Shown here piece after piece: positions 6,522 to 34,371 of a stretch of DNA of 47,328 nucleotides. The stretch's first letter is position 1. Each line of letters begins with the position of its first letter. Origin of the DNA: Clostridia bacterium (GTDB taxonomy: Bacteria; Bacillota; Clostridia; Oscillospirales; Acutalibacteraceae); NCBI GenBank assembly GCA_017521365.1, contig JAFXCT010000008.1:1-47328 (forward strand). The letters run 5' to 3'. The translations under genes and the position numbers were made by a program. The notes beneath the pieces are model-generated. The model had not been told where the DNA came from and did no database searches. It saw only the letters and a list, made by a program, of their open reading frames with translations.

Positions 6522-7925
6522 TTATTCAGCGTCTTCTGCCTTTTTCTCTGCGGCCTTCTTGGTTGTGCGCTTCTTGGGAGCGGGCTTCTCCTCGCCCTCG
6601 GCAGCCTCTGCCTTGGGAGCAGCCTTCTTCTTGGGAGCTGCCTTCTTCTTTGCAGCCTTTGCGTTGTCAACGACAACCTTCATAGCCTTCTGTACGGAAA
6701 CGTCAGCCTTTACGCTTTCAACGGAAGCGAACTTCTTGACTGTTTCAAGGTCGATGCCGTAGGTTGTGGCAATCTTGTCGTACTCTGCGTTAACGTCGTC
6801 GTCTGTAACTTCGATATTCTCAAGCTTTGCAATCTTCTCAAGTGCAAGGCGGAGCTTAACCTGCTTTTCAGCCTCGGCTCTGATCTGCTCGTCGAGAACC
6901 TTCTCATCCATACCTGTGTATGCAAGGTACTGCTCGTAGCTGATGCCCTGAGACTCGAAGCGCTGGATAAAGCTGTCCTTATTCTGCTTTGCAGCCTCGT
7001 CAATGATGATTGCGGGGATTTCTGCCTTTACGTTTTCAACGAGCTGCTCTCTGAGAGCGTTTTCAAAAGCATCGTCGGCATTTCTCTGCTTTGCTTCGCC
7101 GAGCTCCTTCTTGATGCCTTCCTTGAGCTCTGCTATAGTATCGTACTCGCCGAGATCCTTTGCAAACTCGTCGTCAACCTCGGGAAGCTCCTTGAAGGAG
7201 AGCTTGTTGAGCTTGCACTTGAAAACAGCTTCCTTACCAGCAAGCTCGGGTGTGTATTCTGTGGGGAAGGTAACGTTTACGTCGAACTCTTCGCATATGT
7301 TCTTGCCAACAATCTGCTCCTCGAAGCCGGGAATGAATGCACCGGAGCCAAGAACAAGGTCATAATCCTCTGCCTTGCCGCCTTCGAAGGCTACGCCGTC
7401 AACAAAGCCCTCGAAGTTGATGTTTGCCATATCGCCGTCCTTGGCTGCTCTGTCGTCAACATCGACAAGTCTGGAGTTCTGCTCACGAAGGTGGTCAATC
7501 TCACGGTTGATTTCTTCGTCTGTAACCTCTGCAGAGGGCTTCTCTGCGCTGAGACCCTTATATTCGCCGACATCTGCATCGGGCTGAGTTGCAACCTTAA
7601 CGGTGAACTCTACGCCGTTGTCGCCGATTTCGACTACGTTTGCATCATAAGCGCCGCTTGCGGCTTCAATGCCTGATTCTTTGATTGCTTCATCTACTGC
7701 ATCGGGAAAAAGGTCGTTGAGAGCATCCTCGTAGAAAACGCCCTTGCCGTACATTCTCTCTACCATCTGCATAGGTACCTTACCCTTACGGAAGCCGGGG
7801 ATAGCAATATCCTTCTTCTGCTTGTTGTAAACCTTGACCGTAGCTGCCTTGAAGGTAGCGGCGTCGATGGTTACGGTGAGTTCCTGAACGTTAGCTTCTG
7901 CTTCTTTGATTGATTTTAAGCTCAT
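6522..7925 (-). CDS. tig: Trigger factor (ribosome-bound chaperone) with a lysine/alanine-rich tail
   Basis: Chaperone and peptidyl-prolyl isomerase that docks on ribosomal protein L23 and shields nascent chains. The start at 7925 follows TAGGAGGA; the ten residues before it in the open frame have no ribosome site. The 467-aa product shows the ribosome-binding signature GFRKGKVP, an FKBP-type central domain (about 150-245) and the SurA-like C-terminal domain. After about residue 420 there is an extra tail of some 45 residues rich in Lys, Ala, Pro and Glu, of the KKKAAPKKKAAPK type. Most trigger factors end near 430 aa without this. The gene starts the tig-clpP-clpX unit from an extended -10 promoter. 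Confidence 0.96.
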   Translation of the reverse strand: MSLKSIKEAEANVQELTVTIDAATFKAATVKVYNKQKKDIAIPGFRKGKVPMQMVERMYGKGVFYEDALNDLFPDAVDEAIKESGIEAASGAYDANVVEIGDNGVEFTVKVATQPDADVGEYKGLSAEKPSAEVTDEEINREIDHLREQNSRLVDVDDRAAKDGDMANINFEGFVDGVAFEGGKAEDYDLVLGSGAFIPGFEEQIVGKNICEEFDVNVTFPTEYTPELAGKEAVFKCKLNKLSFKELPEVDDEFAKDLGEYDTIAELKEGIKKELGEAKQRNADDAFENALREQLVENVKAEIPAIIIDEAAKQNKDSFIQRFESQGISYEQYLAYTGMDEKVLDEQIRAEAEKQVKLRLALEKIAKLENIEVTDDDVNAEYDKIATTYGIDLETVKKFASVESVKADVSVQKAMKVVVDNAKAAKKKAAPKKKAAPKAEAAEGEEKPAPKKRTTKKAAEKKAEDAE

Positions 7926-7957
7926 TTTTAAAATCCTCCTACTGTTTAGACCCAAGC

Positions 7958-7986
7958 ATTATAGCATATAAAAAACTAAATGGCTA
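7958..7986 (-). promoter_or_regulatory. tig promoter (extended -10)
   Basis: TGCTATAAT on the minus strand (TATAAT at 7958-7963) with a partial -35, TAGCCA, 17 bp upstream (7981-7986). The ribosome site of tig lies about 20 nt downstream. Confidence 0.6.
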
Positions 7987-8015
7987 TAGTTTTAATAATA
8001 AATTTTGGCATTTTT

Positions 8016-8708
8016 TCAAATTTTTTCTATTAATTTCGGACAAAAACCGAGGCTGTCACCCGAAATGAGGTTAAACTGTATCCCCTCATACTCCGAAACG
8101 AAGGCGTTTTTAATTGAAGCCCCGTGGAGATGGGCATAGTAGCAACGCTTTACGTCAAACTCGTGCAGCACTTCTATCAGCTCGTTGACCGCTATTTTGT
8201 TGCTCACGGGCGGATAGTGAAGAAAGGCAATCGGCTCACCGCCGAAATACTTTGCAACCGACAGCGAGCGTCTGAGTCTTCCGGCTTCACGCCTGAGCGC
8301 TTTTTCCTCGTCCTCTGCTCCGCTCTCATAAAACCAGCCCTTTGTGCCGGCAATGCAGATATCGCCGAAGCGGAAGGCGTTGTTAAAGAGAAAGTCAATC
8401 GAGTCAATACCGTTGTCGGCAAGAAACCTCTGCATTTTCGCCTTGGTTTCCCACCAATAATCGTGGTTGCCCTTCATAAGGATTTTCTTGCCGGGCAGAG
8501 AGTGGAGAAAGCGGAAATCCTCAAGCGCTTCGGGCAGCTTCATACCCCACGAAACGTCACCGCAGATAAGCACGGTATCGTCCTCTTTTACTATTTTCCG
8601 CCAGTTTTCCTCAAGCCTTTGCTCGTATCCGCTCCAGCCGTGAAAAACGTCCATAGGCTTTTCAACGCCGAAGGAAAGGTGTGTATCCCCTATTGCAAAA
8701 AGCGACAT
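8016..8708 (-). CDS. Calcineurin-like metallophosphoesterase (COG1768 type)
   Basis: A 230-aa cytoplasmic phosphoesterase. The two-metal motifs appear in order: GDTH (Asp8, His10), GDVSWG, GNHDYWW, HYPP and HLHG. GDVSWG and GNHDYWW are typical of the COG1768 branch of predicted phosphohydrolases, whose natural substrate I do not know. The start lies 5 nt after the thrC stop, with GAGGG 9 nt upstream inside the end of thrC, so the two are probably translated together. It is the last gene of the unit that begins at rplS; nothing in the neighbourhood points to a substrate. Confidence 0.85.
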   Translation of the reverse strand: MSLFAIGDTHLSFGVEKPMDVFHGWSGYEQRLEENWRKIVKEDDTVLICGDVSWGMKLPEALEDFRFLHSLPGKKILMKGNHDYWWETKAKMQRFLADNGIDSIDFLFNNAFRFGDICIAGTKGWFYESGAEDEEKALRREAGRLRRSLSVAKYFGGEPIAFLHYPPVSNKIAVNELIEVLHEFDVKRCYYAHLHGASIKNAFVSEYEGIQFNLISGDSLGFCPKLIEKI

Positions 8709-14612: not shown

Positions 14613-16443
14613 CGCATTCACCTCCGTTTATTTTGTTTGCACCGCAGCCCGAGCACTTTTCACGGCAATGAGGAGTTGTTTCGTTTCTGTGTGCCTTAGT
14701 ATATTCTCTGATTAAATGGTTCTTGGTCACGCCGTAGTCAAGGTGGTCCCACGGCAGAATTTCATCGAGGCTTCTTTCTCTGCCTGCATAGAAGGCTGGG
14801 TCTATGCCGCAGTCGTCAAAGCTTGCCATCCAGTCGTCAAGACGGAAGCACTCATCCCAGCCGTCAAGCTTACAGCCTCGTTTCCACGCTGTTTCAATAA
14901 CGGCGGAAAGGCGTCTGTCACCCCTTGCGAACACACCTTCAAGGAAGCTCATATCCGTATTGTGGCGGGTGAGCGAAATTTTACGGCTTGTAAGGCTGCT
15001 GATGACAAGCTGCTGCTTGCGAAGAAGCTCCTCCTTGCTGTTCTGACCCTCCCATTGGAAGGGTGTGAAGGGCTTGGGTACAAAGGGGGCAACGCTGATG
15101 CTTACGTTTACGCCCTTACCCTTGGGCTTGTTGGGGTTGCGGTAGAATTCGTCAACCACCTTCTGTGCAAGCTGAGCTATGGCAACAATATCCTCATCCG
15201 TTTCCGTGGGAAGACCGAGCATAAAGTAGAGCTTAACGCTTGTCCAGCCTGCATCGAAAGCCTTCCTTGCGGCGGAAAGGATTTCTTCCTCGGTAAGGTT
15301 TTTATTTATTACGTCACGCATACGCTGTGAGCCTGCTTCCGGCGCAAAGGTAAGACCGCTCCTTCTGACAGAAGCAAGGCGCTCGGAAAGCTCTTTTGAG
15401 AAATTGTCTGCACGAAGCGAGGGCAGAGCTATATTGACCCTGTCCTTGACAGTCCAGTCGAGCAGCTTATTGAGAAGCGGCTCAAGCTCGGTGTAGTCAC
15501 TGGTGCTCAGTGAGCAGAGGGAAACCTCGTCATAACCCGTTGAATCGCAGATACGCTTACAGTCACGGTTGACAGTTTCAGCCGTCTTTTCTCTTATCGG
15601 GCGGTAGATATAACCTGCCTGACAAAAGCGGCAGCCGCGGATACAGCCGCGGAAAATTTCTGCAACCGTTCTGTCGTGAATAATCTCAACGGAAGGCACG
15701 ATAAACGTTTCGGGGAAATAGACCTTATCAAGGTCGCTGATTATTCTTTTTTCAACTCTTTCGGGTGCCGTGCCCAAAGGCTTTATTGACTTTACGGTTT
15801 TGTCCCCGTTATATTCAACATCATAAAGCGACGGCACGTAAATGCCCTTGATTTTAGCCGCTTCGAGCAGAAACTCCTGCTTTGTCGAGCCCTTTGCCTT
15901 ATGAATTTTAAGCAGGTCTATAAGGTCGTTTGTAACCTCTTCGCCCTCACCGGGGAGCATAATATCAAAGAAATCCGCCATAGGCTCCGCATTACATACG
16001 CAGGGACCGCCTGCAATAACGATAGGAGCAAGGTCTTTCCTGTCCTTGGCATAAATAGGCAGACCTGCAAGGTCAAGCATATTTAGCACGTTGGAATAGC
16101 TCATTTCATACTGCAGTGTGAAGCCGATAAGGTCGAAATCCTTTATCGGGTCGCCGCTTTCAAGTCCGTAGAGCAATATGCCGTTTTCACGCATCTTCTC
16201 TTCCATATCGACCCACGGTGCAAAGACACGCTCGCACCAGGCATCCTCACGCTCATTGACGAGCGAATAGAGAATCTTGATACCGAGGTGTGACATACCC
16301 ACTTCATAAGTATCGGGGAAGCAGAAGGCGTAGCGGATGTCAACTTTTTCTTTATCCTTTACAATACTGTTCGGCTCGCCGCCCGTATATCTGCCGGGCT
16401 TCTGGACAAGCGGAAGTATTCTTTCAAGCTTTTCGGAAAGCAT
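14569..16443 (-). CDS. Radical SAM protein, TIGR03960 family
   Basis: A 624-aa radical-SAM enzyme of unknown substrate. The N-terminal part (about 1-220) resembles a cobalamin-binding-like domain (PDTYEVGMSHLGIKILY, LPGEGEE). The radical-SAM core has the iron-sulfur cysteines Cys267, Cys271 and Cys274 (RGCIRGCRFCQAG) and later LRADNFS and TFAPEAGSQRMR. The C-terminal tail holds a second Cys cluster (CREKCSGCGANK), which may bind a metal. The start at 16443 follows GGAGGA with 5 nt spacing; six more residues upstream in the frame lack a site. It overlaps its partner DUF2344 gene and follows the spoIVF-like pair, an order common in Clostridia. Confidence 0.9.
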   Translation of the reverse strand: MLSEKLERILPLVQKPGRYTGGEPNSIVKDKEKVDIRYAFCFPDTYEVGMSHLGIKILYSLVNEREDAWCERVFAPWVDMEEKMRENGILLYGLESGDPIKDFDLIGFTLQYEMSYSNVLNMLDLAGLPIYAKDRKDLAPIVIAGGPCVCNAEPMADFFDIMLPGEGEEVTNDLIDLLKIHKAKGSTKQEFLLEAAKIKGIYVPSLYDVEYNGDKTVKSIKPLGTAPERVEKRIISDLDKVYFPETFIVPSVEIIHDRTVAEIFRGCIRGCRFCQAGYIYRPIREKTAETVNRDCKRICDSTGYDEVSLCSLSTSDYTELEPLLNKLLDWTVKDRVNIALPSLRADNFSKELSERLASVRRSGLTFAPEAGSQRMRDVINKNLTEEEILSAARKAFDAGWTSVKLYFMLGLPTETDEDIVAIAQLAQKVVDEFYRNPNKPKGKGVNVSISVAPFVPKPFTPFQWEGQNSKEELLRKQQLVISSLTSRKISLTRHNTDMSFLEGVFARGDRRLSAVIETAWKRGCKLDGWDECFRLDDWMASFDDCGIDPAFYAGRERSLDEILPWDHLDYGVTKNHLIREYTKAHRNETTPHCREKCSGCGANKINGGECDALRKSGACQKGQG

Positions 16444-16483
16444 AAACGTCCTCCAAATCAAAATTACACCTTATTGTACACGA

Positions 16484-17080
16484 TTATTCCCTTCTTTTCA
16501 AGAGTGTAAAGGATAAATAAATACTTGCAAGCACGAGAGTTATGTTGTAGCGGCTTCGTATGAGTATATAAAACCCGAAAGCTGAAAGCGGAATCAGGCA
16601 GACCACACCGATTATAAACACGGTTTTTTCAGCCTTTGCGGAATTCATACGGCACATCAGGCGGCACTTGATTGCCCTGCCGCAGTCAAGTGGCTCAATC
16701 GGCAGAAGATTAAACAGAGCAAGGCTGACGTTGACGGCTATGGGCTTGAAAAGTCCGTTTAAATCGCAGATACACATTACAGCCGCCATAACAGCCGCCG
16801 CAAAAAGGTTGGCGGCAGGGCCTGCAAGAGCTATGCACATTTCCCTGCGGTGGCTGCAGCCCGAAAAACGGGTTATGCACATACCGAAGGGCGCAAGGAA
16901 TACCTTGCTCGGCTTTTCGCCGCAGGCAAGCATACAAAGCAGATGACCGCTTTCGTGAATTACGGCGGCAAAAATTGTCAGCACGGCGGTGTTTGTAGTG
17001 TCGAGCACCAAAGCAATGCAAACGGTAAAGAAAAAGAAAAAGCTGATGCTGACACGGCTGCCTTTAACTTTAAAGGTCAT
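16484..17080 (-). CDS. spoIVFB: M50 site-2 metalloprotease, SpoIVFB-like
   Basis: An intramembrane zinc protease of 198 aa. Zinc ligands are His42 and His46 in HESGH with the catalytic Glu43, and Asp132 in NLLPIEPLDCGR. The last motif is usually LDGG; here one Gly is Cys. Four to six hydrophobic segments are visible. In Bacillus, SpoIVFB cuts pro-sigma-K during sporulation and is held by SpoIVFA. The assignment here rests on the size, the motifs and above all the upstream M23 gene, which matches SpoIVFA. It overlaps that gene by 11 nt. A general site-2 protease role is the alternative. Confidence 0.72.
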   Translation of the reverse strand: MTFKVKGSRVSISFFFFFTVCIALVLDTTNTAVLTIFAAVIHESGHLLCMLACGEKPSKVFLAPFGMCITRFSGCSHRREMCIALAGPAANLFAAAVMAAVMCICDLNGLFKPIAVNVSLALFNLLPIEPLDCGRAIKCRLMCRMNSAKAEKTVFIIGVVCLIPLSAFGFYILIRSRYNITLVLASIYLSFTLLKRRE

Positions 17081-17822
17081 TGAGCAGCCACTCCGGGTTG
17101 CAGTATTTACCGCCTATGATAATTGAAAAATGCAGATGTGCACCTGTTGACCAGCCCGTATTACCCACAAGCGCTATTATTTCGCCCTGCCTTACAACTG
17201 CGCCCTCGGGTGCAATAATCTCGGAGCAGTGCATATAAAGCGTTTTTGTTTCGCCGCCGTGCGCAACGAGGATATAATTGCCTCTGACATTGTTACAGCC
17301 TACCTCTTCTACAATGCCGTTGAAGGCGGCGGAAATTTTAGTGCCCTCGGGTACGGCAATATCAAGCCCGTTATGTATGCCGAATTTACCCGTTATCGGG
17401 TGTGTGCGGTAGCCGAAGCGTGAGGTGAACTCGCCGTCAACTGGCAAACAGATGTCAACCGTGGTTTCTATGGGCGCAAAGCAAACATTTTCCGTTGCCT
17501 CGTAAAGTGCAACGTCCTCACCGCCCGACGGAAGACTCGTTTCCTCCTCGGCAGGAGATATATCGGGAATAAGATTTTTAACTGCGTTTACAACCTGCGA
17601 AACGCTCATATCATTGCTCATAATCGCATTGAAACGTGTCCTTAATTCGTTAAAGCCCGCCGGAGAAGCCTTTGAAATAAGCAGAAGCAAGGCTATTCCG
17701 ATAACAGCCAGCGTAAGCTGTGCAGAAGAAATACCGACAAGCCAGTCGGGCTTTGCGTTCTGCCTTTTCTTTTTGGAATTTACCGTGCGTTTTCTCGGAT
17801 ATGTTTCATCAAAGCCTTCCAT
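17070..17822 (-). CDS. spoIVFA: M23 (LytM) domain membrane protein, SpoIVFA-like
   Basis: A 250-aa protein with a basic N-terminal tail, one membrane segment (about 33-51), a linker and a C-terminal LytM/M23 domain (about 125-245). Metal ligands look intact: His150 and Asp154 in GIHNGLD, His229 and His231 in GAHLHF. In Bacillus, SpoIVFA carries a LytM domain and controls the SpoIVFB protease in the outer forespore membrane. The tandem M23-M50 arrangement with an 11-nt overlap supports that pairing. The start at 17822 has GGAGG 6 nt upstream; the two-codon extension starts with TTG. A peptidoglycan endopeptidase role remains possible because the active site is complete. Confidence 0.7.
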   Translation of the reverse strand: MEGFDETYPRKRTVNSKKKRQNAKPDWLVGISSAQLTLAVIGIALLLLISKASPAGFNELRTRFNAIMSNDMSVSQVVNAVKNLIPDISPAEEETSLPSGGEDVALYEATENVCFAPIETTVDICLPVDGEFTSRFGYRTHPITGKFGIHNGLDIAVPEGTKISAAFNGIVEEVGCNNVRGNYILVAHGGETKTLYMHCSEIIAPEGAVVRQGEIIALVGNTGWSTGAHLHFSIIIGGKYCNPEWLLNDL

Positions 17823-17850
17823 ATTCAACCTCCCTATAACAACTTGTAAA

Positions 17851-17879
17851 TAAATATGTAATTAAAATTACAGATATTA
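17851..17879 (-). promoter_or_regulatory. Candidate sigma-E promoter of the spoIVFA-like gene
   Basis: On the minus strand TAATATC (17873-17879), 14-bp spacer, CATATTTA (17851-17858). The -35 fits the sigma-E pattern well; the -10 shares only CATA with CATACAAT. The same TAATA - 14 - CATAT layout occurs ahead of spoIIID. Confidence 0.35.
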
Positions 17880-17887
17880 CACGAAGC

Positions 17888-17920
17888 TGTTGCCAAAATG
17901 TTAAATGACTGTTAAAACCG
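17888..17920. promoter_or_regulatory. Three tandem 11-bp repeats: probable response-regulator operator
   Basis: Three 11-bp units begin with TGTT (17888, 17899, 17910) and end exactly at the -35 of the downstream promoter. Two read TGTTAAA. On the minus strand this is TTAACA, the half-site of Bacillus PhoP boxes, at the 11-bp period used by OmpR/PhoB-family dimers. It lies between the spoIVF-like genes and the two-component operon and could serve either direction. Confidence 0.6.
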
Positions 17921-17949
17921 TTGCTTAAAAATCAACATTATGATAAAAT
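17921..17949 (+). promoter_or_regulatory. Promoter of the response regulator - kinase - relQ operon
   Basis: TTGCTT (17921-17926), 17-bp spacer ending in TGA, TAAAAT (17944-17949), so also an extended -10. The weak -35 and the repeats directly upstream fit activation by a bound regulator. Confidence 0.65.
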
Positions 17950-17969
17950 CTGATTAAAGGAAAGGAAGA

Positions 17970-18659
17970 ATGATAGCTATGAAAAGAATTATTGTTGCAG
18001 ACGACGAGGCAAGAATCCGCAGACTTGTGTGCGATTTCTTAAGCTGTGAGGGCTACGAGGCAATCGAAGCAGCCGACGGTGACGTGGCACTTGAAATATT
18101 CAACACTCAGGGCAATATCGACGCACTCATACTCGACGTTATGATGCCGAATATGGACGGCTGGGAGGTTTGCAGGAAAATCCGTGAAAAATCCAACGTG
18201 CCTATCTTGATGCTCACCGCAAGAAGCGAGGAATTTGACGAGCTTATGGGCTTTGAGGTCGGCGCAGACGATTACGTCACAAAGCCCTTCAGCCCCGGTG
18301 TGCTTATGAAGCGTGTTGCCGCACTTCTCCGAAGGGCAGGCGGCGAGGCTGAGGACACAAACAGCCTGCCCGGGCTTGACGGACTCAAGGTGGACGAGAT
18401 TGCTCACGTTGTAACGCTTGACGGCACGGCGCTTGAGCTTACTTTAAAGGAATACAACATACTCCTCAAGCTGCTTTCCTCCGTGGGCAGAGTTTTTTCC
18501 AGAGAACAGCTGCTTGACGATATCTGGGGCTACGACTATGCAGGCGACATACGCACGGTTGACAGCCACGTTGCACGCCTTCGCACAAAGCTTGGCATAT
18601 GGGGCAACGAGCACCTGAAAACGGTTTACGGAATAGGCTACAAAATAGAGGCTGAATGA
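17970..18659 (+). CDS. OmpR/PhoB-family response regulator
   Basis: A 229-aa DNA-binding response regulator. The receiver domain (about 4-118) has the acidic pair Asp11-Asp12, phospho-acceptor Asp56 in LILDVMMP, and Lys105 in TKPFSP. The C-terminal winged helix (about 135-227) has LTLKEYNILLKLL, SREQLLDDIWGYDY and RTVDSHVARLRTKLG. The start at 17970 has AAAGGA 8 nt upstream; an ATG three codons on (17979) is a close alternative. The stop overlaps the kinase start (ATGA). Closest in type to PhoP/ResD-like regulators; the PhoP-box-like repeats upstream agree with autoregulation, but phosphate is not shown to be the signal. Confidence 0.94.
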   Translation: MIAMKRIIVADDEARIRRLVCDFLSCEGYEAIEAADGDVALEIFNTQGNIDALILDVMMPNMDGWEVCRKIREKSNVPILMLTARSEEFDELMGFEVGADDYVTKPFSPGVLMKRVAALLRRAGGEAEDTNSLPGLDGLKVDEIAHVVTLDGTALELTLKEYNILLKLLSSVGRVFSREQLLDDIWGYDYAGDIRTVDSHVARLRTKLGIWGNEHLKTVYGIGYKIEAE

Positions 18660-20191
18660 TGAAAAAAAGAATCCGAAGCAGAATTCAAAAAATAAAAGGC
18701 AAAAAGTATTCCCTGAGGACGCAGTTCTTCGGGGTTACTGCTTTTTTTATCTGTGCAGGCACCTTTGCAATACTGCTGGCAAACACGCAGCTGATTCCGC
18801 TGATTTACACGCTCAGGCAAACAAAAAACCTGACCATTGCCGCCGAGCAGGTAGGTATGGCGCTGTATGAAAGCAAGGATTTTTACGCCGACATGACAGT
18901 TATAGAGGACAACTACAATGTCGAGGTTGAGCTGTACAACAGCGACGGCAGACTCGTTTATATTTCTGCCGTAAACGACTTTTTACAGGACTGGGTTGAG
19001 GATTCGGGCATTAACCTTTTCGATGTAATGCGCACACGAAACCTGACCCTGATTGAACGCAAGGTACTTAACAACGGAACGTACTTTGAAACGCTGAAAG
19101 ACGACAGCAACGGTCTGCAATATCTGATGTTCGGCACACCCATAGGCACTGCAGGTACGCTTAAGGTTTATGCGCAGATGGATTACCTTTCCGCAACGGC
19201 GAACGCAACGACACGGTACGTGAGCATAGTTGCCTGCGGCACGTTTATGTTCATCATCATATCCGTATACTTCTATCTTCACCATTTCAGCAAGCCGCTT
19301 ATAGAAATGAACAAGATAACAAGAGATATGGCGAAAATGGACTTTTCGCAGAAATGTCCGCCGTACGCAAACAACGAAATCGGTGAGCTGGGCCAGAGCA
19401 TCAACACGCTTTCCGCTTCGCTTGATGCTACACTCAAGGATTTGCAGCAGAAAAACAAACAGCTTGAAGCGGATATCGAGCACAAAATAAAGGTTGAGCA
19501 GGCACGCAAGGAATTCGTTTCCAACTCCTCGCACGAATTGAAAACCCCGATTGCAATTATTCAGGGCTATGCGGAGGGCTTAAAGCTCGGAATGAAATCC
19601 GGCAAGATGAACACGGACGATTACTGCGACATCATTATTGAGGAAACGCACAAAATGAACAGACTTGTGTGCGATATGCTTGAGCTTTCAAAGTACGAAA
19701 CGGGCAGCTACACGCTTGAAGAGAGAAGCTTTGACATAGGCGAATTCGTGCGCACGAGCATCGAAAGTTACGATATACTCGCAAAGGAAAGCGGCATTGA
19801 AATCATAAACAATATTCCGAACGGCTTGACGGGATACGGAGACCCGCAGCGGCTTGAAATGGTTATACACAACTACGTTTCAAACGCACTTTCCCACGCA
19901 AAGTACGACAAAAAGATAATTCTGTCCGCAGCCGAAGCCGAAGGCAGCATAAGCGTAAGCGTTTTCAACACGGGCGACCACATTGCGGAAAACGACCTTG
20001 AAAATATATGGCAGAGCTTCTACAGAGCGGACAAGGCACACTCAAGAGATGAAGGCAGATTCGGACTCGGACTCTCAATCGTCAAGGCTATTCAGGAGCT
20101 TCACGGTATGCCCTACTCTGCCCAAAACGTTGAGGGCGGAGTAACGTTCAGCTTTGATATAAAGAAACCCGACGGAGAAAGTGAAAAATGA
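18656..20191 (+). CDS. Membrane sensor histidine kinase
   Basis: A 511-aa sensor kinase that should phosphorylate the regulator encoded just upstream. Two membrane segments at about 19-42 and 182-207 enclose an extracytoplasmic region of roughly 140 residues, of a type that I do not recognise. A HAMP linker (about 208-262) and a coiled-coil stretch lead to the HisKA domain with His293 in SSHELKTP. The ATPase domain has Asn410 in NYVSNALSH and the glycine-rich GLGLSIVKA. The gene overlaps both neighbours by 4 nt (ATGA), so regulator, kinase and alarmone synthetase are translated as a set. Confidence 0.95.
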   Translation: MMKKRIRSRIQKIKGKKYSLRTQFFGVTAFFICAGTFAILLANTQLIPLIYTLRQTKNLTIAAEQVGMALYESKDFYADMTVIEDNYNVEVELYNSDGRLVYISAVNDFLQDWVEDSGINLFDVMRTRNLTLIERKVLNNGTYFETLKDDSNGLQYLMFGTPIGTAGTLKVYAQMDYLSATANATTRYVSIVACGTFMFIIISVYFYLHHFSKPLIEMNKITRDMAKMDFSQKCPPYANNEIGELGQSINTLSASLDATLKDLQQKNKQLEADIEHKIKVEQARKEFVSNSSHELKTPIAIIQGYAEGLKLGMKSGKMNTDDYCDIIIEETHKMNRLVCDMLELSKYETGSYTLEERSFDIGEFVRTSIESYDILAKESGIEIINNIPNGLTGYGDPQRLEMVIHNYVSNALSHAKYDKKIILSAAEAEGSISVSVFNTGDHIAENDLENIWQSFYRADKAHSRDEGRFGLGLSIVKAIQELHGMPYSAQNVEGGVTFSFDIKKPDGESEK

Positions 20192-20877
20192 GGTCTGAAA
20201 GAGCAAATGAAGAAAGGCTTTTCAAGGAAAAGCTGATAGATTCGGCAAACGAAATCACACTTGAGATAGTACAGGAAAAGGCAGTTGAATTCAGGCGGCT
20301 TCTATCCTACTACCGCTGTGCGCTTATGGAAGTTGAAACCAAATTCAGGGTGCTCAACGAGGAATTCTCGCTCAAATACGACAGAAATCCCATAAGCTCA
20401 ATTAAAACAAGAATAAAATCCGTACCGAGCATTATTGAAAAGCTTGAACGCAGAGACCTTGCATTTGACGTTGACAACATAGAAAACTACATCAATGATA
20501 TTGCGGGAATCAGAGTTACCTGCCCGTTTCCCGAGGACGTTTATCTGCTTGCCGAATCACTGCTCAAGCAGGACGATGTAATGCTGATAAGGAAAAAGGA
20601 TTATATTGAAAATCCGAAAGAAAACGGCTACCGCAGCCTGCACCTGATAGTTGCCGTACCGATTTACCTCGCACACGAGAAAAGGCTGATGAAGGTTGAA
20701 ATTCAGCTGCGCACGCTGGCTATGGATTTCTGGGCAAGCCTTGAGCACCAATTAAGATATAAAAAGGATTTTGATTTCACGGAAGAAATGGCAAAAGAGC
20801 TGTTTGAATGTGCAGAACAAAGCGCCGCACTCGACAAGCGTATGGGCGAGCTGAGAAAAAAGGTAATGAGCGAATAA
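20188..20877 (+). CDS. relQ: Small alarmone synthetase, RelQ/YjbM type
   Basis: A 229-aa single-domain GTP pyrophosphokinase that makes (p)ppGpp from ATP and GTP/GDP. It has no hydrolase, TGS or ACT domain. Synthetase motifs are complete: SSIKTRIKSVPSIIEKL, Asp104 in DIAGIRV, NPKENGYRSLHL, and Glu171 in VEIQLRT followed by MDFWASLEHQLRYK, which is typical of RelQ. Such enzymes form tetramers and are often controlled by transcription. Here the gene is the third in a two-component operon, overlapping the kinase by 4 nt. That suggests alarmone output tied to an outside signal. In Bacillus this gene sits with NAD kinase, not with a two-component system. Confidence 0.93.
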   Translation: MRSERANEERLFKEKLIDSANEITLEIVQEKAVEFRRLLSYYRCALMEVETKFRVLNEEFSLKYDRNPISSIKTRIKSVPSIIEKLERRDLAFDVDNIENYINDIAGIRVTCPFPEDVYLLAESLLKQDDVMLIRKKDYIENPKENGYRSLHLIVAVPIYLAHEKRLMKVEIQLRTLAMDFWASLEHQLRYKKDFDFTEEMAKELFECAEQSAALDKRMGELRKKVMSE

Positions 20878-20882
20878 ACAAA

Positions 20883-20925
20883 AAGCAAGGTAAAAGCCAA
20901 TCGGCAATTACCTTGCTTAATTTTT
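20883..20925. terminator. Bidirectional terminator between relQ and putP
   Basis: An 11-bp perfect stem (20883-20893 with 20908-20918) followed by AATTTTTAT on the plus strand and by TTTTTG on the minus strand. It ends both convergent units. Confidence 0.88.
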
Positions 20926-20934
20926 ATATGTTGA

Positions 20935-22422
20935 TTAGTCTTCGATTGAAATGTTGCTTGCCTTTTCAAACATTGCTACAACTTCCTTCGTGGGCTCCTT
21001 ATCAAGAAGCGAAACGACGATACAGCTAAGACCGCCTGCAATAAAGCCGGGAAGAAGCTCGTAGATACCTGTTTCGGAAAGAAGGAGCATCCACGCAACG
21101 TCAATGACAGCACCGACGACAACGCCTGCGATAGCACCCTTGTATGTAGTTCTCTTCCAGAAGAGTGAAAGGAGAATTACGGGGCCGAAGGCTGCGCCGA
21201 AGCCGCCCCAGGCATTGTCAACAAGGCTCATAATCGTTGATGCACCTTCCGACTTGCTGCTTGCGATAAAGAAAGCAACAACCGCGATAATAAGAACAAC
21301 TATACGGCCTACCCAGAGGGTTTCCTTATCGGAAGCGTTCTTGCGGAAAACGGGCTTGTAAATATCGCTTGTAAAAGAGGAGGAAGCAACGAGAAGCTGA
21401 GAGTCAGCCGTGCTCATTGCAGCCGCAACGATAGCGGAAAGAAGAAGACCTGCAATAAAGCCGGGGAAAAGCTTCTGGGCAAGGGTTACGAAAACAAGCT
21501 CCTGCTGGCCTGCGTCGACAAGTGCCTGTGTGGGAGCGAAGGCTCTGCCCAGGATAGCCATAGCAATAGCTGCACCGAGGGAGAGAACAACCCATACGAT
21601 ACCGATTGTTGCAGACTTCTTGAGAACCTTAACGTTCTTTGTAGACATAAATCTGACAATGATGTGAGGCATACCGAAGTAGCCGAGACCCCATGCAAGA
21701 CCCGAAACGATATCCTTCCAGGATGCTGCAAAGGGATTGAGGGGATTGACACCGCCGTCAGCAGCTTCAAATACGCTGAAGTCAAGCTCCTGAACAAAGA
21801 TGAGCATAAAGGGAACGGCAAGAAGTGCGGCAAGCATCATAAGGCCCTGGAAAAAGTCCGTCCAACAAACTGCCTTGAAGCCGCCGAAGAATGTGTAAAC
21901 AATAATAATTGCTGCAAAAATGACAAGTGCAAGGTTGGGGTTATCCGCAAGCTGGGGAACAACCTGGATGAATACCTTCTGACCTGCAACGAAGCTTGAC
22001 GCAACGTAGATTGTGAAGAAAACAAGGAATACGATTGCACAGATAATCTGAAGAGCACGGCTCTTCGCCATAAAACGGTTTGAAAGATACTGCGGAATTG
22101 TGATTGAATCGTTGCAGACCTGTGAGAACTTACGGAGTCTTCTTGCAACGAAAATCCAGTTTGCTGCTGTACCGAGCGCAAGACCGATACCAATCCAGAC
22201 CTGACCCATACCGAAGGCAAGGATACTGCCGGGGAAGCCCATAAGCAGCCAGCCGGACATATCGGAGGCCTGTGCGCTGAGCGCTGTTACCCACGGACCC
22301 ATTGAACGGCCGCCAAGGAAATAATCCTTTTCGCCTGTACCCTTCGACTTGAAGAAGAAGAAAAGACCAATGCCGAGGACAACAACAAAATAGAGAACAA
22401 ATGCTAAAAGCTGTGATGTCAT
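20935..22422 (-). CDS. putP: Sodium/proline symporter
   Basis: A 495-aa membrane transporter of the SSS family (LeuT fold) with about 13 membrane segments, driving uptake of proline with Na+. Typical PutP features are SDMSGWLLMGFPG in the second helix, FTIYVASSFVAGQK, FGMPHIIVRFMS and STADSQLLVASSSF in the Na+ site region. The start follows GAGAGG 7 nt upstream. It is monocistronic, with its own promoter and terminator. Proline could serve as osmolyte or as Stickland-type substrate, but no proline catabolic gene is present in the window, so the role is open. Specificity within the family is inferred from overall similarity. Confidence 0.92.
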   Translation of the reverse strand: MTSQLLAFVLYFVVVLGIGLFFFFKSKGTGEKDYFLGGRSMGPWVTALSAQASDMSGWLLMGFPGSILAFGMGQVWIGIGLALGTAANWIFVARRLRKFSQVCNDSITIPQYLSNRFMAKSRALQIICAIVFLVFFTIYVASSFVAGQKVFIQVVPQLADNPNLALVIFAAIIIVYTFFGGFKAVCWTDFFQGLMMLAALLAVPFMLIFVQELDFSVFEAADGGVNPLNPFAASWKDIVSGLAWGLGYFGMPHIIVRFMSTKNVKVLKKSATIGIVWVVLSLGAAIAMAILGRAFAPTQALVDAGQQELVFVTLAQKLFPGFIAGLLLSAIVAAAMSTADSQLLVASSSFTSDIYKPVFRKNASDKETLWVGRIVVLIIAVVAFFIASSKSEGASTIMSLVDNAWGGFGAAFGPVILLSLFWKRTTYKGAIAGVVVGAVIDVAWMLLLSETGIYELLPGFIAGGLSCIVVSLLDKEPTKEVVAMFEKASNISIED

Positions 22423-22446
22423 AATTTAACCTCTCTTTCTCCGTTG

Positions 22447-22466
22447 CGCTTTATTGTATTAAAGCG
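22447..22466. promoter_or_regulatory. Inverted repeat in the putP leader
   Basis: CGCTTTA - 6 nt - TAAAGCG, a perfect 7-bp dyad between the putP promoter and its ribosome site. It may be a hairpin or an operator. It shares AAAGCGTT with the palindrome ahead of the surface-protein gene. Confidence 0.4.
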
Positions 22467-22488
22467 TTACAAAGATAAAATATAAATT

Positions 22489-22517
22489 ATTCTATCACTA
22501 ATTTTAAAAATATGCAA
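22489..22517 (-). promoter_or_regulatory. putP promoter
   Basis: TTGCAT (22512-22517), 17-bp spacer, TAGAAT (22489-22494) on the minus strand, about 60 nt ahead of the putP start. Confidence 0.6.
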
Positions 22518-22544
22518 GTTTTTTCGGATAAAAATTTATAAATA

Positions 22545-22585
22545 TGCAAAAAATCCCCACAGTAATAAAGGCCCGTTATCTGCGG
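22545..22585 (-). terminator. Terminator of the small membrane-protein gene
   Basis: On the minus strand a 6-bp stem CCGCAG/CTGTGG (one G-U pair), extended by ATAA/TTAT with a bulge, is followed by GGATTTTTTGC. The stem begins within the last codons of the small gene. Confidence 0.5.
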
Positions 22586-22752
22586 TTTAAATACAAAATT
22601 GTAAAGGTTGATATTGATACTATTACAATAAAACTAATACCCCAAAAAAGTTTAGGATTTTTTTGCCTTAAATATTCCAACGGCTTACTCAAAATAAACA
22701 TTAACAGCATACAGCTCAAAAATACCACTGCAAACAATAAAACAAATTTCAT
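22576..22752 (-). CDS. 58-aa membrane protein, two hydrophobic helices
   Basis: A small gene in what otherwise looks like an AT-rich gap. The product (58 aa) begins MKFVLLFAVVF and ends LYLNRR. It has two hydrophobic segments (about 2-21 and 37-55) joined by a short polar loop with Lys, Glu and Arg, so both ends probably lie on the same side of the membrane. GAAAGG lies 9 nt ahead of the ATG and a terminator follows. The gene lies downstream of the sugar isomerase on the same strand, with a hairpin between them. I do not recognise the family. A plus-strand frame over the same bases lacks a ribosome site and is a shadow. Confidence 0.6.
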   Translation of the reverse strand: MKFVLLFAVVFLSCMLLMFILSKPLEYLRQKNPKLFWGISFIVIVSISTFTILYLNRR

Positions 22753-22786
22753 ATCAATAAACCTTTCGGTTGTAAATTGATTTGTA

Positions 22787-22805
22787 CGGTTTGCGCTGCA
22801 AACCG
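22787..22805. other. Hairpin directly after the sugar isomerase stop
   Basis: CGGTTTGC - GCT - GCAAACCG, a perfect 8-bp stem 1 nt beyond the stop codon of the minus-strand gene. There is no U-tract, so it is more likely an mRNA-stability or attenuation element ahead of the small membrane-protein gene than a full terminator. Confidence 0.5.
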
Positions 22806-22806
22806 C

Positions 22807-23631
22807 TTACGGCATATACGGGTTTTCGTCGTAGGAATAGTCCTCGGGCATAATAAAGGGCTTGACGAAATTGATTGTGTAATCAACGCCCCACTGGCCG
22901 ACTGCGCCCTTCCACTTACCCGAATGAGGCTCGATTGAGAGCATACCGTTATATTTCTTTATGTAGAGAAGTGCGAAAACGGGGCCCCACTTGACGTCGT
23001 CAAGGCCTGCGGGCGGATCATCGTAATGCTCGCCGCCGACGTAGAGTGTACCCTTGATATGGAAGTGGTAGAATCTGTCGCCCCATTTTTCCATTTCGGC
23101 AAGGTAGTCGCCGCCGCGGTTTATGCAATGAGACGTGTCGTACTTTATGCCAAGCTCGGGAAGTCTGCCGAGGACAACGCTCCACGCAGGGTCTTCAACA
23201 ACGAAGTTTGCCCAATCGCAGTTATAAACGGCAATTTTTACGTTTCTCTCCCTGCCGTATTCAATCAGCTGCGAAAGATAGTTGATTGCGATATCGCAGT
23301 TTTCCGTAAAGCTCTTACCCTCAACCTCGTTACAGCCGCAGTTGAACACGGGACAGCCGACCCTTGAGGCAAAGTCGATACAGTTTTTGTCGTGCTGAAG
23401 GGCTTCGGGAATAATTTCACCGTTATCGTCAACCCTGTCCATACCCCAGCGGCCTATTGAGCCGACCTTAACACCGTATTTTGCACAGCTTTCGTTGATT
23501 CGGTCTGCCTCGGCAAGCACCTGAGCGCTGTCGTAGTTGTGGTTTACGCAGAATTCAACCCACTTGAGACCCTTTTTGCTTACGGCTTCAATACAGCCGT
23601 CCGACCAACCGTTGATAATACCAAGATACAT
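22807..23631 (-). CDS. Sugar phosphate isomerase/epimerase family protein (TIM barrel)
   Basis: A 274-aa protein of the xylose-isomerase-like TIM barrel superfamily. Likely metal and substrate residues are Asp165 and His168 in KYDTSH, His189/His191 in YHFHIKG and Glu234 in SIEPHSG. The first metal Glu expected on a middle strand is not obvious: that strand reads IAVYNCDW. The family covers many sugar and polyol isomerases, so the substrate cannot be named. The start has GGAGGT 6 nt upstream. It follows tmcAL after 14 nt but is not linked to it in function. A GCAAACC hairpin and a small membrane-protein gene follow. Confidence 0.82.
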   Translation of the reverse strand: MYLGIINGWSDGCIEAVSKKGLKWVEFCVNHNYDSAQVLAEADRINESCAKYGVKVGSIGRWGMDRVDDNGEIIPEALQHDKNCIDFASRVGCPVFNCGCNEVEGKSFTENCDIAINYLSQLIEYGRERNVKIAVYNCDWANFVVEDPAWSVVLGRLPELGIKYDTSHCINRGGDYLAEMEKWGDRFYHFHIKGTLYVGGEHYDDPPAGLDDVKWGPVFALLYIKKYNGMLSIEPHSGKWKGAVGQWGVDYTINFVKPFIMPEDYSYDENPYMP

Positions 23632-23645
23632 AAGAATACCTCCGT

Positions 23646-24809
23646 TTAAAAAATCTTTGTTCTATAATAAGCGCCGCACTCACGGGCCGGCGCAAAGCTC
23701 AACGAATAAATATCGTCTGCCTTACATTCAAGAGCAAATATCTCCCCTGCCCTGCCGTCAAGCCCCATTAACTGTGAGGCTCTTCCGACCACGGGCAAAG
23801 CGGGCTTTGCGGCAGAGAGTATTTCCCTGCCCTTTTCATTGCAGGTAAGAATTCTGATATAAGGCGGTGTGCCGAGTGAATCCGTTGCCCTCACGCCGAG
23901 GAAAAGGCTGAGAATAATTCTTCTTATTCTTGCCGCGGTATAGCGCTTGGTTTTGATTTTTTGGAGCAAATCATCAACGCTTGCCGCTTCACGGATTGCG
24001 GAATAAATGCGGTTTTCCAACCCCTCCGAAATATCGGGCGCAAGCGCAATTTCCTGCACGGAAATGGTACGAAGCTTTGAAAGCACCGCCAAATCAAGCC
24101 GTGAAAAGTCGGAAAAATCCTGAGTATACAAAGCACTTAACTCTTCGGGCACGAGTAACGGATTGAAGCTGTTGCTTCTTATTGTTTCTCTTACAGCGGT
24201 TGCCGAAGCAAAGCCGCTGCCGCTGTAGACGTTTTCGTTATAGCCGTCACCTGCACGGGAAACGGCGTTAAATTCAAAATTACAATTCATATTCTTTGCC
24301 GCCGCAATATATTCAACGGCAAGAATGTTGTTGGGCTTTTCGAGCAGCTTTGCAATATCCTCACCGCACAGAGCTTCAACGGCACTCTGTCGGATTGAAG
24401 CAAAGGTTTTGTTTTGAGAAAGCTGAGAAGAAATTACGGCTTCGTATTCTTCGCAATAAAGCGTATCGGCAATTTTCTCAAGCGCAGGCAAATCGGAATT
24501 TTCACAGCCGAAGGACAGCATATCAACACCGCCGAGTGCTTTAGCGATACCGACGGCACCTCTTGCAAAGGTCTGCGCCGTACCCGTTGCCCACGGCAAG
24601 GGAAGCTCGGCAACAAGGTCTGCACCGCACTTGACAGCAGCGGAAGCACGAAGGTACTTGTCGTAAATTGCCGCTTCACCGCGCTGTACAAAATTACCGC
24701 TCATCACGGCGACAATATGTGTTGCGCCTGCGGCACGTGTTTGTTCAAGCTGATATTTATGCCCCGAATGGAAGGGGTTGTATTCGGCAACAACCGCCGC
24801 AGTTTTCAT
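23646..24809 (-). CDS. tmcAL: tRNA(Met) cytidine acetate ligase
   Basis: Makes N4-acetylcytidine at the wobble position of elongator tRNA-Met from acetate and ATP (TmcAL, formerly YlbM). The N-terminal nucleotidyltransferase domain has the motif FHSGH at residues 13-17 (HxGH type) in AEYNPFHSGHKYQLEQ, then MSGNFVQRGEAAIYDKY and ADLVAELPLPWATGTAQ, all typical. The C-terminal half binds tRNA. The start at 24809 (387 aa) uses GGTGGT 6 nt upstream; 18 further residues in the open frame have no site. It lies downstream of sigE on the same strand with a 65-nt gap. Confidence 0.93.
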   Translation of the reverse strand: MKTAAVVAEYNPFHSGHKYQLEQTRAAGATHIVAVMSGNFVQRGEAAIYDKYLRASAAVKCGADLVAELPLPWATGTAQTFARGAVGIAKALGGVDMLSFGCENSDLPALEKIADTLYCEEYEAVISSQLSQNKTFASIRQSAVEALCGEDIAKLLEKPNNILAVEYIAAAKNMNCNFEFNAVSRAGDGYNENVYSGSGFASATAVRETIRSNSFNPLLVPEELSALYTQDFSDFSRLDLAVLSKLRTISVQEIALAPDISEGLENRIYSAIREAASVDDLLQKIKTKRYTAARIRRIILSLFLGVRATDSLGTPPYIRILTCNEKGREILSAAKPALPVVGRASQLMGLDGRAGEIFALECKADDIYSLSFAPARECGAYYRTKIF

Positions 24810-31793: not shown

Positions 31794-31818
31794 AACAAGC
31801 AAAAAGGAAGTGAAAAAT

Positions 31819-32169
31819 ATGTCTGCACCCAAGGTATTTGAAAGCGAATACCGCTTCTGCCTCATTCTGTGGGAAAACGAGCCCGTTTCCTCCCGCCGTT
31901 TAAGCGAGCTTTGCAAGGAGCAGCTCGGCTGGTCGAAAACGACGACCTACACGGTAATCAAGCGCCTTTCCGACAGAGGCGTGCTCAAAAACGAAAACAC
32001 GGTTGTAACCTCGCTCGTTTCAAAGCAGGAGGTACAGCAGGCGGAAATTGAGGAGCTTATGGAGAAGAAGTTTGAAAACTCCGTGCCCGCCTTCATTGCC
32101 GCCTTTGCAAAAAGCAAGGCACTAAGTGACGATGAAATCGAGCAGATTCGCAGAATTATCGAAAAGTAA
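31819..32169 (+). CDS. blaI: BlaI/MecI-family transcriptional repressor
   Basis: A 116-aa winged-helix repressor that should bind the two dyads at its own promoter and be cut when the partner BlaR1 protease is triggered. The N-terminal DNA-binding domain (about 5-75) has RRLSELCKEQLGWSKTTTYTVIKRL and the wing. The C-terminal helical dimerisation part ends with SDDEIEQIRRIIEK. The start at 31819 has AAGGA 10 nt upstream; a GTG three codons earlier overlaps the site. It precedes blaR1 by 12 nt. No beta-lactamase gene is near, so the regulon target is unknown. Confidence 0.93.
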   Translation: MSAPKVFESEYRFCLILWENEPVSSRRLSELCKEQLGWSKTTTYTVIKRLSDRGVLKNENTVVTSLVSKQEVQQAEIEELMEKKFENSVPAFIAAFAKSKALSDDEIEQIRRIIEK

Positions 32170-32181
32170 GGAGGGGTGAGA

Positions 32182-34371
32182 ATGGACGAAATCATTTACT
32201 TAATTCAGAAGTTTTTAACCTTTATTACCGTGCCGTTTCTCGAAATTGTAAACATCAGTATTACGGCAGGCTGGATTGTGCTTGCGGTGCTTGTGCTCCG
32301 CTTACTGTTCAGAAAAGCTCCGAAATGGCTCAACTGCGTGCTCTGGGGCATAGTTGCGCTGAGGCTCGTATTTCCGTTTTCAATCGAAAGCGTGTTCAGC
32401 CTTATTCCCAGCGCACAGACCTTTGAGCCCAACCTTCCCTACCTGAACGAATTCAAAATCAATTCGGGAATAGAGGTGCTTGACAACGCGGTAAACACAC
32501 AGTACGCCGACTTTGCACCCATAGCGGAAAGAACGGTTGACGTGACGATTATTCTCGCCTGCGTGTGGCTGTCGGGGCTTGCAATTATGCTGCTTTACGC
32601 CCTTGCGAGCTGGGCAAGGCTTAAAATGAGCCTTAAAACCGCAACGAAAAAGGAAGGAAACATATACCAAAGCGAGTTTGTGCAGTCGCCGTTTGTGCTC
32701 GGAATCATAAAGCCCAAAATTTATATTCCGTACAAGACAAACGAAAACGACCTGCCGCTTGTAATTGCGCACGAGAAAGCACACATCAAACGCCTTGACC
32801 ACCTTATAAAGCCGCTCGGCTTCCTGCTGCTTAGCATTTACTGGTTCAATCCTCTGCTGTGGGCTGCCTACGTTCTGCTTTGCAGGGATATTGAAGCCGC
32901 CTGCGATGAAAAGGTAGTAAAGGAGCTTGACGAGCAGCAGCGCAGGGATTATTCGGCGGCTTTGCTAAACGCGAGCATCAGCCGCAAATCCATTGCCGCG
33001 TGTCCCCTCGCCTTCGGTGAAACGGGCGTAAAAGAAAGGATAAAAGGAGTAATGAATTACAAAAAGCCTGCGTTCTGGGTTATTATTGCGGCTGTCGTTA
33101 TCTGTATCGTTACGGCGGTCTGCTTCCTGACAAACCCGACCGATACAAGAAGAATCGACTACTCGCCGAATATTTCAAATGAGCTTGACACACTTATAAG
33201 AACAGAAATCATCAACTATAACAAGGGCAATTACCTTGACGGTGAGGTTTCCTGTGCAGCATTTAAAGTGCTTGCAACCGAAACCGTGAGCAAGCCCGAC
33301 GAAAACGGAATAGCAATTACGGTTTACCTTGTATCAAGCTACAACGAATACAGCGTTGAGGACGGAAAGCTCATTGAAATGGGCGGTAACGGCACTCCGC
33401 TTGCGCTCTCATTCGTTGTAAACGGCGAGGACAGCTATGCGCTTTACGATTACTGGGAGCCGGGTATGGGAAGCTCATACATCAAGGATTTGCAGGCAAA
33501 ATTCCCGACCGCTTTAGTTAACAAGGTTATCGACGGCGACTATTCCCAAGAACTTATAGATAACTGCAAAGCACAGGCAATTGCCTACTTCGGACTTAAC
33601 CCTGAGGACGTTACCGTTACCTACTCCGAACCTTACTCAACGGTTGCACTCGAAGCAAAATTTGACTATGAGCTGACCGTTGAAAGAAGCAAGACAAGCG
33701 GCGTTACGTGGATGACGGATGAAACCTTCTATAAAAAGAACGGTTTTCACGCTTACCTCTACTGCCTTGACAAGGCTTACGTAACGCTCGGCAGTAAGAG
33801 CATTTACATCGGCGATGCGCTCAATTCCGAAAAGCTGTATGTTGACACGCTGCTGAAAAAAGCGGAAGAAGACGTCAAAAACAGCAAGGCAAAAACGGAT
33901 ATGCTCAAGGACGGCGGAACGAAGTTTTATTGGTACGACGGCTACACGATAATCAAGCGCAACACGGTTGACGGCAACAAGGATTTGATTATCACTTACG
34001 CCGATATAAGCACAACGGAATACTCTGCGGCGGTTAAGTTTATAAGCGGAAGTATCCCGACGGAAAAGGAAACGACTACAGACTATATCGTCGGCGTTAC
34101 AGCACCCGTGGGTTATGATGATGAACCACATTTTGATGCTGTAATCATAGAAAACAACGGCAGCAGTCTGCTTGTCAAAGCCTACGGCGACAACGCAGGA
34201 ATTACGGAAGGCTCGCAGGCCTACGTCAGCCTTAAAAGCGTACTGTCGCACATTGAACTGCCCGAAATGAAAAAGGGTGACAAGGTACGCTTTATCTACG
34301 ACGGCACAGTTCAGGAAACCTATCCCCTCCAGATTCCCACAGTATGGGCAGTTTATGAGTTAGAAGAATAG
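32182..34371 (+). CDS. blaR1: BlaR1-like M56 membrane metalloprotease with non-PBP sensor
   Basis: A 729-aa signal-transducing protease. The N-terminal part has about four membrane segments and the cytoplasmic zinc motif HEKAH (His197, Glu198, His201), followed by CRDIEAACDEKVV, both typical of M56. A further membrane helix at about 287-306 leads to an outer region of some 420 residues. That region is not a penicillin-binding domain: I see no SxxK, SxN or KTG motifs. Its last 90 residues resemble the DUF3221 pattern ending in VWAVYELEE. The start at 32182 follows AGGAGG with 7 nt. The signal is therefore probably not a beta-lactam; it should inactivate BlaI when activated. Confidence 0.88.
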   Translation: MDEIIYLIQKFLTFITVPFLEIVNISITAGWIVLAVLVLRLLFRKAPKWLNCVLWGIVALRLVFPFSIESVFSLIPSAQTFEPNLPYLNEFKINSGIEVLDNAVNTQYADFAPIAERTVDVTIILACVWLSGLAIMLLYALASWARLKMSLKTATKKEGNIYQSEFVQSPFVLGIIKPKIYIPYKTNENDLPLVIAHEKAHIKRLDHLIKPLGFLLLSIYWFNPLLWAAYVLLCRDIEAACDEKVVKELDEQQRRDYSAALLNASISRKSIAACPLAFGETGVKERIKGVMNYKKPAFWVIIAAVVICIVTAVCFLTNPTDTRRIDYSPNISNELDTLIRTEIINYNKGNYLDGEVSCAAFKVLATETVSKPDENGIAITVYLVSSYNEYSVEDGKLIEMGGNGTPLALSFVVNGEDSYALYDYWEPGMGSSYIKDLQAKFPTALVNKVIDGDYSQELIDNCKAQAIAYFGLNPEDVTVTYSEPYSTVALEAKFDYELTVERSKTSGVTWMTDETFYKKNGFHAYLYCLDKAYVTLGSKSIYIGDALNSEKLYVDTLLKKAEEDVKNSKAKTDMLKDGGTKFYWYDGYTIIKRNTVDGNKDLIITYADISTTEYSAAVKFISGSIPTEKETTTDYIVGVTAPVGYDDEPHFDAVIIENNGSSLLVKAYGDNAGITEGSQAYVSLKSVLSHIELPEMKKGDKVRFIYDGTVQETYPLQIPTVWAVYELEE

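Follow-up and report, generated by a model that had tools for sequence, protein, structure and literature searches.

Links between a two-component system (TCS) and a small alarmone ((p)ppGpp) synthetase (SAS) have been published for several bacteria. Four papers describe relPRS of Streptococcus mutans (SMU.926-928), in which an SAS shares one operon with a TCS (PMC4963387, PMC7545056, PMC6563777, PMC7674665), and RelRS is said in one of them to activate relP (PMC7674665). In S. pyogenes, the TCS sptRS and the relA homologue spy0873 are reported to form an operon, and the regulation of complex carbohydrate metabolism is ascribed to SptRS (PMC6013163). According to a further source, WalR controls sasA/relP in Bacillus subtilis and VraRS controls relP and relQ in Staphylococcus aureus (PMC10117726). 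The locus described here belongs to a Clostridia bacterium of the family Acutalibacteraceae (assembly GCA_017521365.1, called G000 below, contig JAFXCT010000008.1); the window is the whole stretch of DNA that was analysed, 47,328 nucleotides. It holds the genes of a response regulator (RR), a histidine kinase (HK) and an SAS, in this order, and we consider it probable (roughly 0.6) that they form an autoregulated two-component operon which recruited the SAS as its last gene, the signalling part of this reading being the one that we infer. A previous description made from the DNA letters, called here the sequence-only reading, had implied that such wiring was new; relPRS, sptRS/spy0873, WalR-sasA and VraRS-relP were already in print.

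The RR is of the OmpR/PhoB type (17970-18659, + strand, PF00072 and PF00486), the HK is a membrane kinase with HAMP, HisKA and HATPase_c domains (18656-20191, +), and the SAS, a single-domain synthetase, carries PF04607 alone (20188-20877, +; 110 bits for a cut-off of 27). Consecutive genes share the four nucleotides ATGA, at 18656-18659 between RR and HK and at 20188-20191 between HK and SAS. The sequence-only reading, which had proposed one operon with 4-nt ATGA overlaps, was right about the operon, about the open reading frames (ORFs), all on the + strand exactly where it had placed them, about their domains and about both overlaps, and the arrangement is conserved in 7 of the 11 genomes of the genus. 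Overlaps of 4 nt are frequent within operons, so that they are weak proof when taken alone.

As in relPRS, the SAS gene is contiguous with the genes of a TCS, on one strand and in one operon; the order differs, SAS-RR-HK (relP-relR-relS) in S. mutans and RR-HK-SAS in the window. With sptRS/spy0873, as published, the window operon has in common that a TCS and a relA homologue form one operon. With WalRK and VraRS, the common feature is that a TCS sets SAS transcription, and the difference is that the window SAS is the third cistron of the TCS operon. In those two systems, the SAS gene is located away from those of the TCS.

Each of the 11 genus genomes has a single HK ortholog (E<=1e-60), preceded by the RR, which is syntenic in 11 of 11 and divergent from an M23 peptidase gene that has an M50 peptidase gene behind it. 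The SAS lies directly behind the HK in seven of them (G000, G001, G003, G004, G005, G007 and G010), always in the order RR-HK-SAS, and its start overlaps the HK in all seven: by 4 nt in G000 and G007, 11 nt in G004 and G005, and 23 nt in G001, G003 and G010 (a later second ATG in G001 and G003 would give a short gap instead). This overlapping start, present in 7 of 7 genomes, is more telling than the ATGA overlaps themselves. The SAS of the seven genomes form one clade (support of 99 in the SAS tree). In the five more distant genomes, identity to the window is 73-78% for the SAS, 80-85% for the RR and 60-74% for the HK, whose sensor (43-65%) diverges faster than anything else, compared with 67-80% for the kinase part; the N-terminal part of the SAS differs between two sub-clades of the alignment.

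The four other genomes keep the RR-HK pair without a window-type SAS. In G006, whose HK is 91% identical to that of the window, the SAS is missing from an otherwise intact site and the sole PF04607 match is a long Rel; in G002, G008 and G009, RR-HK is present and a window-type SAS is absent behind it. The simplest history is that RR-HK predates the link, that the SAS was added behind it in a single clade and that G006 lost this gene; the three genes have since diverged in parallel. The same absences also suit a different explanation, in which the SAS landed behind a housekeeping TCS and is carried at a low level, co-transcription having no signalling meaning. Indeed, the gene is cleanly absent from G006, which has no other SAS, as well as from this site in G002, G008 and G009, and an RR or an HK is almost never the neighbour of an SAS in the 150 other SAS loci surveyed below. 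We doubt this explanation, since the overlapping start is kept in 7 of 7 genomes despite an SAS identity of 73-78% in the distant ones, with intact motifs, and since SAS and TCS are also linked in a second SAS group (RR adjacent in 16 of 16) and as fusions.

Between G000 and G005, identity per 150 bases is 75-97% over positions 15001-20250 and rises to 95-100% over 20251-24000; the comparison of the window with L142 (20100-24000) shows the same sharp rise in identity to G005 near the 3' end of the HK gene. This jump suggests that recombination between relatives touched the locus.

The intergenic region shared by the M23 and RR genes contains a direct repeat with an 11-bp period, TGTTAA-ATGAC-TGTTAA (17899-17915, +), which is a candidate binding box for the RR. 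It is followed, upstream of the RR, by a -10-like element, TATGATAAAAT (17939-17949, +), kept with small changes in the genus alignment and not listed by a simple promoter scan. In the alignment of the 11 genus genomes, the box is exact (TGTWAA-N5-TGTTAA) in five (G000, G004, G005, G006, G007), has one base changed at the aligned place in three (G001, G003, G010), and is absent from G002, G008 and G009. The block formed by the box and the -10-like element is conserved in a clade of eight genomes which includes G006, the genome without SAS. Genome-wide, TGTWAA-N5-TGTWAA occurs at 7 sites in G000 compared to 1 for the reversed control, and at 50 compared to 23 in five genomes. The form resembles boxes of the WalR/PhoP class, with the WalR consensus TGTWAH-N5-TGTWAH, and is shared by regulators of the PhoB/PhoP class; a box of this form precedes the RR in the clade.

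Two further copies of the box are each identical in three sister genomes, one at G000:C45:1540, G005:C36:26649 and G006:C13:24254, the other at G000:C125:7514, G005:C32:39560 and G006:C26:192710, and these may be other targets of the regulator.

The candidate box is evidence for autoregulation, in which the SAS would be caught as third cistron; alarmone synthesis as the main purpose of the system is not implied. Several observations weigh against the reading that we prefer. The presence of the box in G006, without SAS, favours autoregulation and not alarmone output specifically, and the conservation of RR-HK in 4 of 11 genomes that have no window-type SAS indicates that the TCS has other outputs. 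The excess of boxes is modest outside G000 (e.g., 11 compared to 7 in G004). The other sites inspected by eye, all 6 in G000 (two of which fall inside ORFs) and 2 of 11 in G005, gave no coherent target set, and a regulon deduced from box sites was rejected for that reason. The promoter-like sites found in the region by the simple scan (4) do not exceed those of shuffled sequences (4.3). Finally, the SAS alone might in principle be transcribed from a weak promoter-like site at 19891-19920, within the HK gene and about 270 nt upstream of the SAS.

If the operon is autoregulated and has recruited its SAS for signalling, the HK would sense an extracytoplasmic signal and phosphorylate the RR, which in its phosphorylated form would bind the 17899-17915 box and raise the transcription of its own operon. 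The SAS would be made in step with the RR and the HK through coupled translation, and the extra enzyme would produce (p)ppGpp or pGpp, slowing growth until the Rel hydrolase clears the alarmone. Control would be exerted on the amount of enzyme, as reported for relPRS. The coupling could instead be post-translational: the SAS would bind the HK or the RR, or (p)ppGpp would feed back on the kinase, and the order of genes at the end of the operon would favour co-assembly. The SAS start that overlaps the HK in 7 of 7 genomes would suit such a contact, as would the direct fusion of a receiver to an SAS in other Clostridia. However, the window SAS has no extra domain, and the parts that would be expected to meet are not constant, the N-terminal part of the SAS differing between sub-clades and the C-terminal tail of the HK being variable in the alignment of orthologs, so that we consider post-translational coupling quite unlikely.

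The HK has a stretch of about 145 residues between two hydrophobic segments, ahead of the HAMP, HisKA and HATPase_c domains. This stretch is predicted to be an extracytoplasmic domain; a PDB search at E<=1 gave nothing for it, and none of its Pfam matches goes below E 0.004. With the WalRK models, the HK scores 205 bits for a WalK cut-off of 725 and the RR 189 bits for a YycF cut-off of 340, both short of cut-offs which are possibly narrow for Clostridia. No plasmid relative of the HK was found at E<=1e-60.

The window SAS has PF04607 with the synthetase motifs and no HD hydrolase domain, which makes it a single-domain (p)ppGpp synthetase. Among 14 aligned TCS-linked SAS, R75, K77, D104, G107, R109, K144, NGYRS at 146-150 and H152 are invariant, and so are E171, Q173, R175, W182, A183, L185, E186 and H187; we take these residues to be the catalytic synthetase motifs. 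The sequence-only reading had named the enzyme RelQ, a name that is not supported. Against the PDB, the window SAS scores 184 bits with S. aureus RelP (6ewz), 170 with B. subtilis YwaC and 131 with YjbM (RelQ), and it reaches 177 for a cut-off of 320 with the NCBIfam model of YjbM; identity with RelQ (YjbM/SasB) was rejected on these scores. In the SAS tree, a branch with a support of 99 separates the window clade and its group of 109 rows from the RelP, YwaC and YjbM references, which it places with 68 other rows; the references sit on long branches, and the best PDB score is nevertheless that of RelP. This tree has 180 rows, 74 of its 176 inner branches are open (weak), and it carries a warning that long branches may meet. 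Because of the PDB scores, the missed YjbM cut-off and the tree branch away from the references, the enzyme is best called an SAS of unsettled subfamily, for which RelQ is not a safe name.

The window SAS is the only PF04607 match in G000, an assembly that is 86% complete, and no long Rel was found there. The other 10 genus genomes each have a long Rel-type match, with open frames of 732-795 aa, and the 12 kb around rel of G005 have no match in G000, in a search made without positive control. The idea that the window SAS is the sole alarmone source of G000 was rejected on these grounds. Since Rel is present in all 10 others and the whole rel region of G005 is unmatched in this incomplete assembly, an assembly gap in which the entire region is missing is likelier than the loss of the gene alone.

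Outside the genus, the order RR-HK-SAS was found in 0 of 150 other SAS loci, 138 of which have at least 1 kb of upstream sequence. The detection of RR and HK relied on phmmer and a small set of queries, which very divergent ones may escape, and the SAS starts outside the genus overlap comparison are guesses based on the longest ORF. The first sample consists of named loci, the 80 best-ranked out of a set of at least 581 confirmed SAS relatives (69 of 80 with at least 1 kb upstream), and in none of them does an RR or HK gene of the same strand lie within 120 nt upstream of the SAS; L138 has an HK farther off, at 754 nt upstream, and in L123 the next gene downstream is an RR. The second sample, 70 class loci (69 with at least 1 kb upstream), is the upper part of a ranked list obtained with a receiver-SAS protein as query, non-random and with about ten rows omitted, and none shows the RR-HK-SAS arrangement. 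The sequence-only reading would have failed if the arrangement had been confined to one genome: it occurs in 7 of 11 genus genomes, and, among the loci surveyed, the overlapping RR-HK-SAS is seen in this genus only.

Homologs of the HK (E<=1e-80) occur in 29 of 150 family genomes; in G012, G013 and G018, these homologs and the SAS are on different contigs. In two close relatives, G284 and G372, the HK ends 370 nt upstream of the SAS, and the RR precedes the HK in the longer G284 stretch. RR-HK pairs stand 370 and 754 nt upstream of an SAS on the same strand in L278 (4534-7403, -) and L138 (5302-8663, +), respectively; these are possibly looser versions of the linkage between SAS and TCS. The SAS of L292, L293 and L294 are on contigs filed as viral, and no RR or HK was found near these three.

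A second linkage concerns a group of SAS that are 31-41% identical to the window SAS and occur, wherever seen, as SAS-RR-HK. Sixteen such operons were collected (L148-L152, L154, L279, L280, L295-L302). They occur in G002 (two copies), G008, G009, G013 and G033, and in G505 and G479, the sole ones among 391 class genomes to reach E<=1e-48; a search of 398 phylum genomes at E<=3.5e-44 added 8, whose assignment is based on an identity of 51-59% and on the RR tree, not on the SAS tree. The RR adjoins the SAS in 16 of 16 and the HK is seen in 15 of 16 (it was not detected in G630, near a contig end), counts which are to be read with the fact that the group was first spotted by its neighbours and that the line between the 8 phylum members and three weaker matches was drawn after the neighbours were known. 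These three (G728, G053 and G613, E 2e-41 to 7e-41) have no RR or HK; the SAS of G053 falls elsewhere in the SAS tree, and those of G728 and G613 were not placed. The gaps between SAS and RR are mostly below 30 nt or overlaps, with 102 nt in L279. The kinases are of about 365-465 aa (longest ORFs), and Pfam finds HisKA and HATPase_c in the two that were searched (L148 and L152), with HAMP not found. The first eight SAS of the group hold together weakly (72 in the SAS tree), and the 16 regulators form their own clade in the RR tree (93/84), apart from the window RR (100/99).

These operons resemble that of the window in that the SAS is next to an OmpR-type RR and an HK, and differ in that the SAS comes first. 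They share their gene order with relPRS of S. mutans, to which they may be akin. One could imagine that the window operon is a relPRS of streptococcal type in which the genes changed places: the three parts are the same, and three genomes of the same genus contain an SAS-RR-HK operon, one of them in two copies. Yet the window SAS and the window RR each stand in clades separate from those of the relPRS-ordered operons, in trees made without streptococcal RelP and RelR; the RR-HK pair is genus-wide and lacks a window-type SAS in 4 of 11 genomes; and in G002, G008 and G009 the RR-HK pair coexists with a distinct SAS-RR-HK operon. Reshuffling is therefore extremely unlikely, and the window operon, as judged by gene order and by the trees made here, is a reversed-order variant of published TCS-SAS wiring and not relPRS.

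A third linkage was found in 7 of the best 80 named loci (L113, L114, L122, L123, L125, L129 at 7536-8606, +, and L130), five of which are labelled Lachnospiraceae. Like the window operon, it joins a two-component input to an SAS, with the difference that receiver and SAS are domains of a single polypeptide, 356-384 aa long. The SAS domains form one clade (94; 99 when the unfused L106 is included), apart from the window SAS. In the receiver, the phosphorylatable Asp, one acidic partner and the Lys do not vary, and the synthetase motifs are likewise invariant. In Petralouisia muris (L123), the genes immediately after the fusion are an OmpR-type RR and one that is HK-like. Since the fusion is one polypeptide, control by phosphorylation would be direct.

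In G504 (L268, 3803-4927, +), a receiver is joined to an HD-type domain, and this protein, which has an Hpt gene nearby, is 54% identical to the L129 fusion over the receiver and the linker. This suggests an exchange of output domain. The receiver-SAS fusion is rare, because no match listed among 391 class genomes covers both of its domains and none of the 24 plasmid records related to a receiver-SAS protein spans both. The searched portions of the open-licence literature contain no description of it. It is the most novel element of this work and lies outside the window, the novelty of which is lower than the sequence-only reading held.

It is an even bet that, in Clostridia and other members of the phylum, a link from a TCS to the synthesis of alarmone arose on three or more separate occasions, as SAS-RR-HK, as RR-HK-SAS and as receiver-SAS fusions in which phosphorylation would switch synthesis directly. 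If this is true, (p)ppGpp would stand beside c-di-GMP among the direct outputs of response regulators, the SAS of the fusions being placed where L268 has its HD-type output domain. The evidence around the window for repeated wiring is stronger than the sequence-only reading could know. The link between TCS and SAS, in print for streptococci, is thereby extended to Clostridia, with more than one origin suggested, and repeated origin would point to recurrent selection for a way to convert an external signal into alarmone when cells are not starved. The fusions would make the direct switching of an SAS by phosphorylation testable with one purified protein.

Downstream of the operon, the gene convergent to the SAS is that of a sodium/proline symporter (putP-like). 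A hairpin with flanking runs of A and T lies between the two (20883-20918, no strand assigned), and the folding of the region 20870-20945 gives -21.9 kcal/mol with a z of -4.96. It is likely a two-way terminator, which a simple terminator scan did not list. Rfam has 0 matches in the window at gathering scores. One gene of the genus locus comparison is threonine synthase-like. Farther along the window (31810-34371, +), a BlaR1-type M56 peptidase gene (PF05569, 32176-34371) is preceded by an ORF of 119 aa, with which it may form a sensor pair of the BlaI/BlaR kind.

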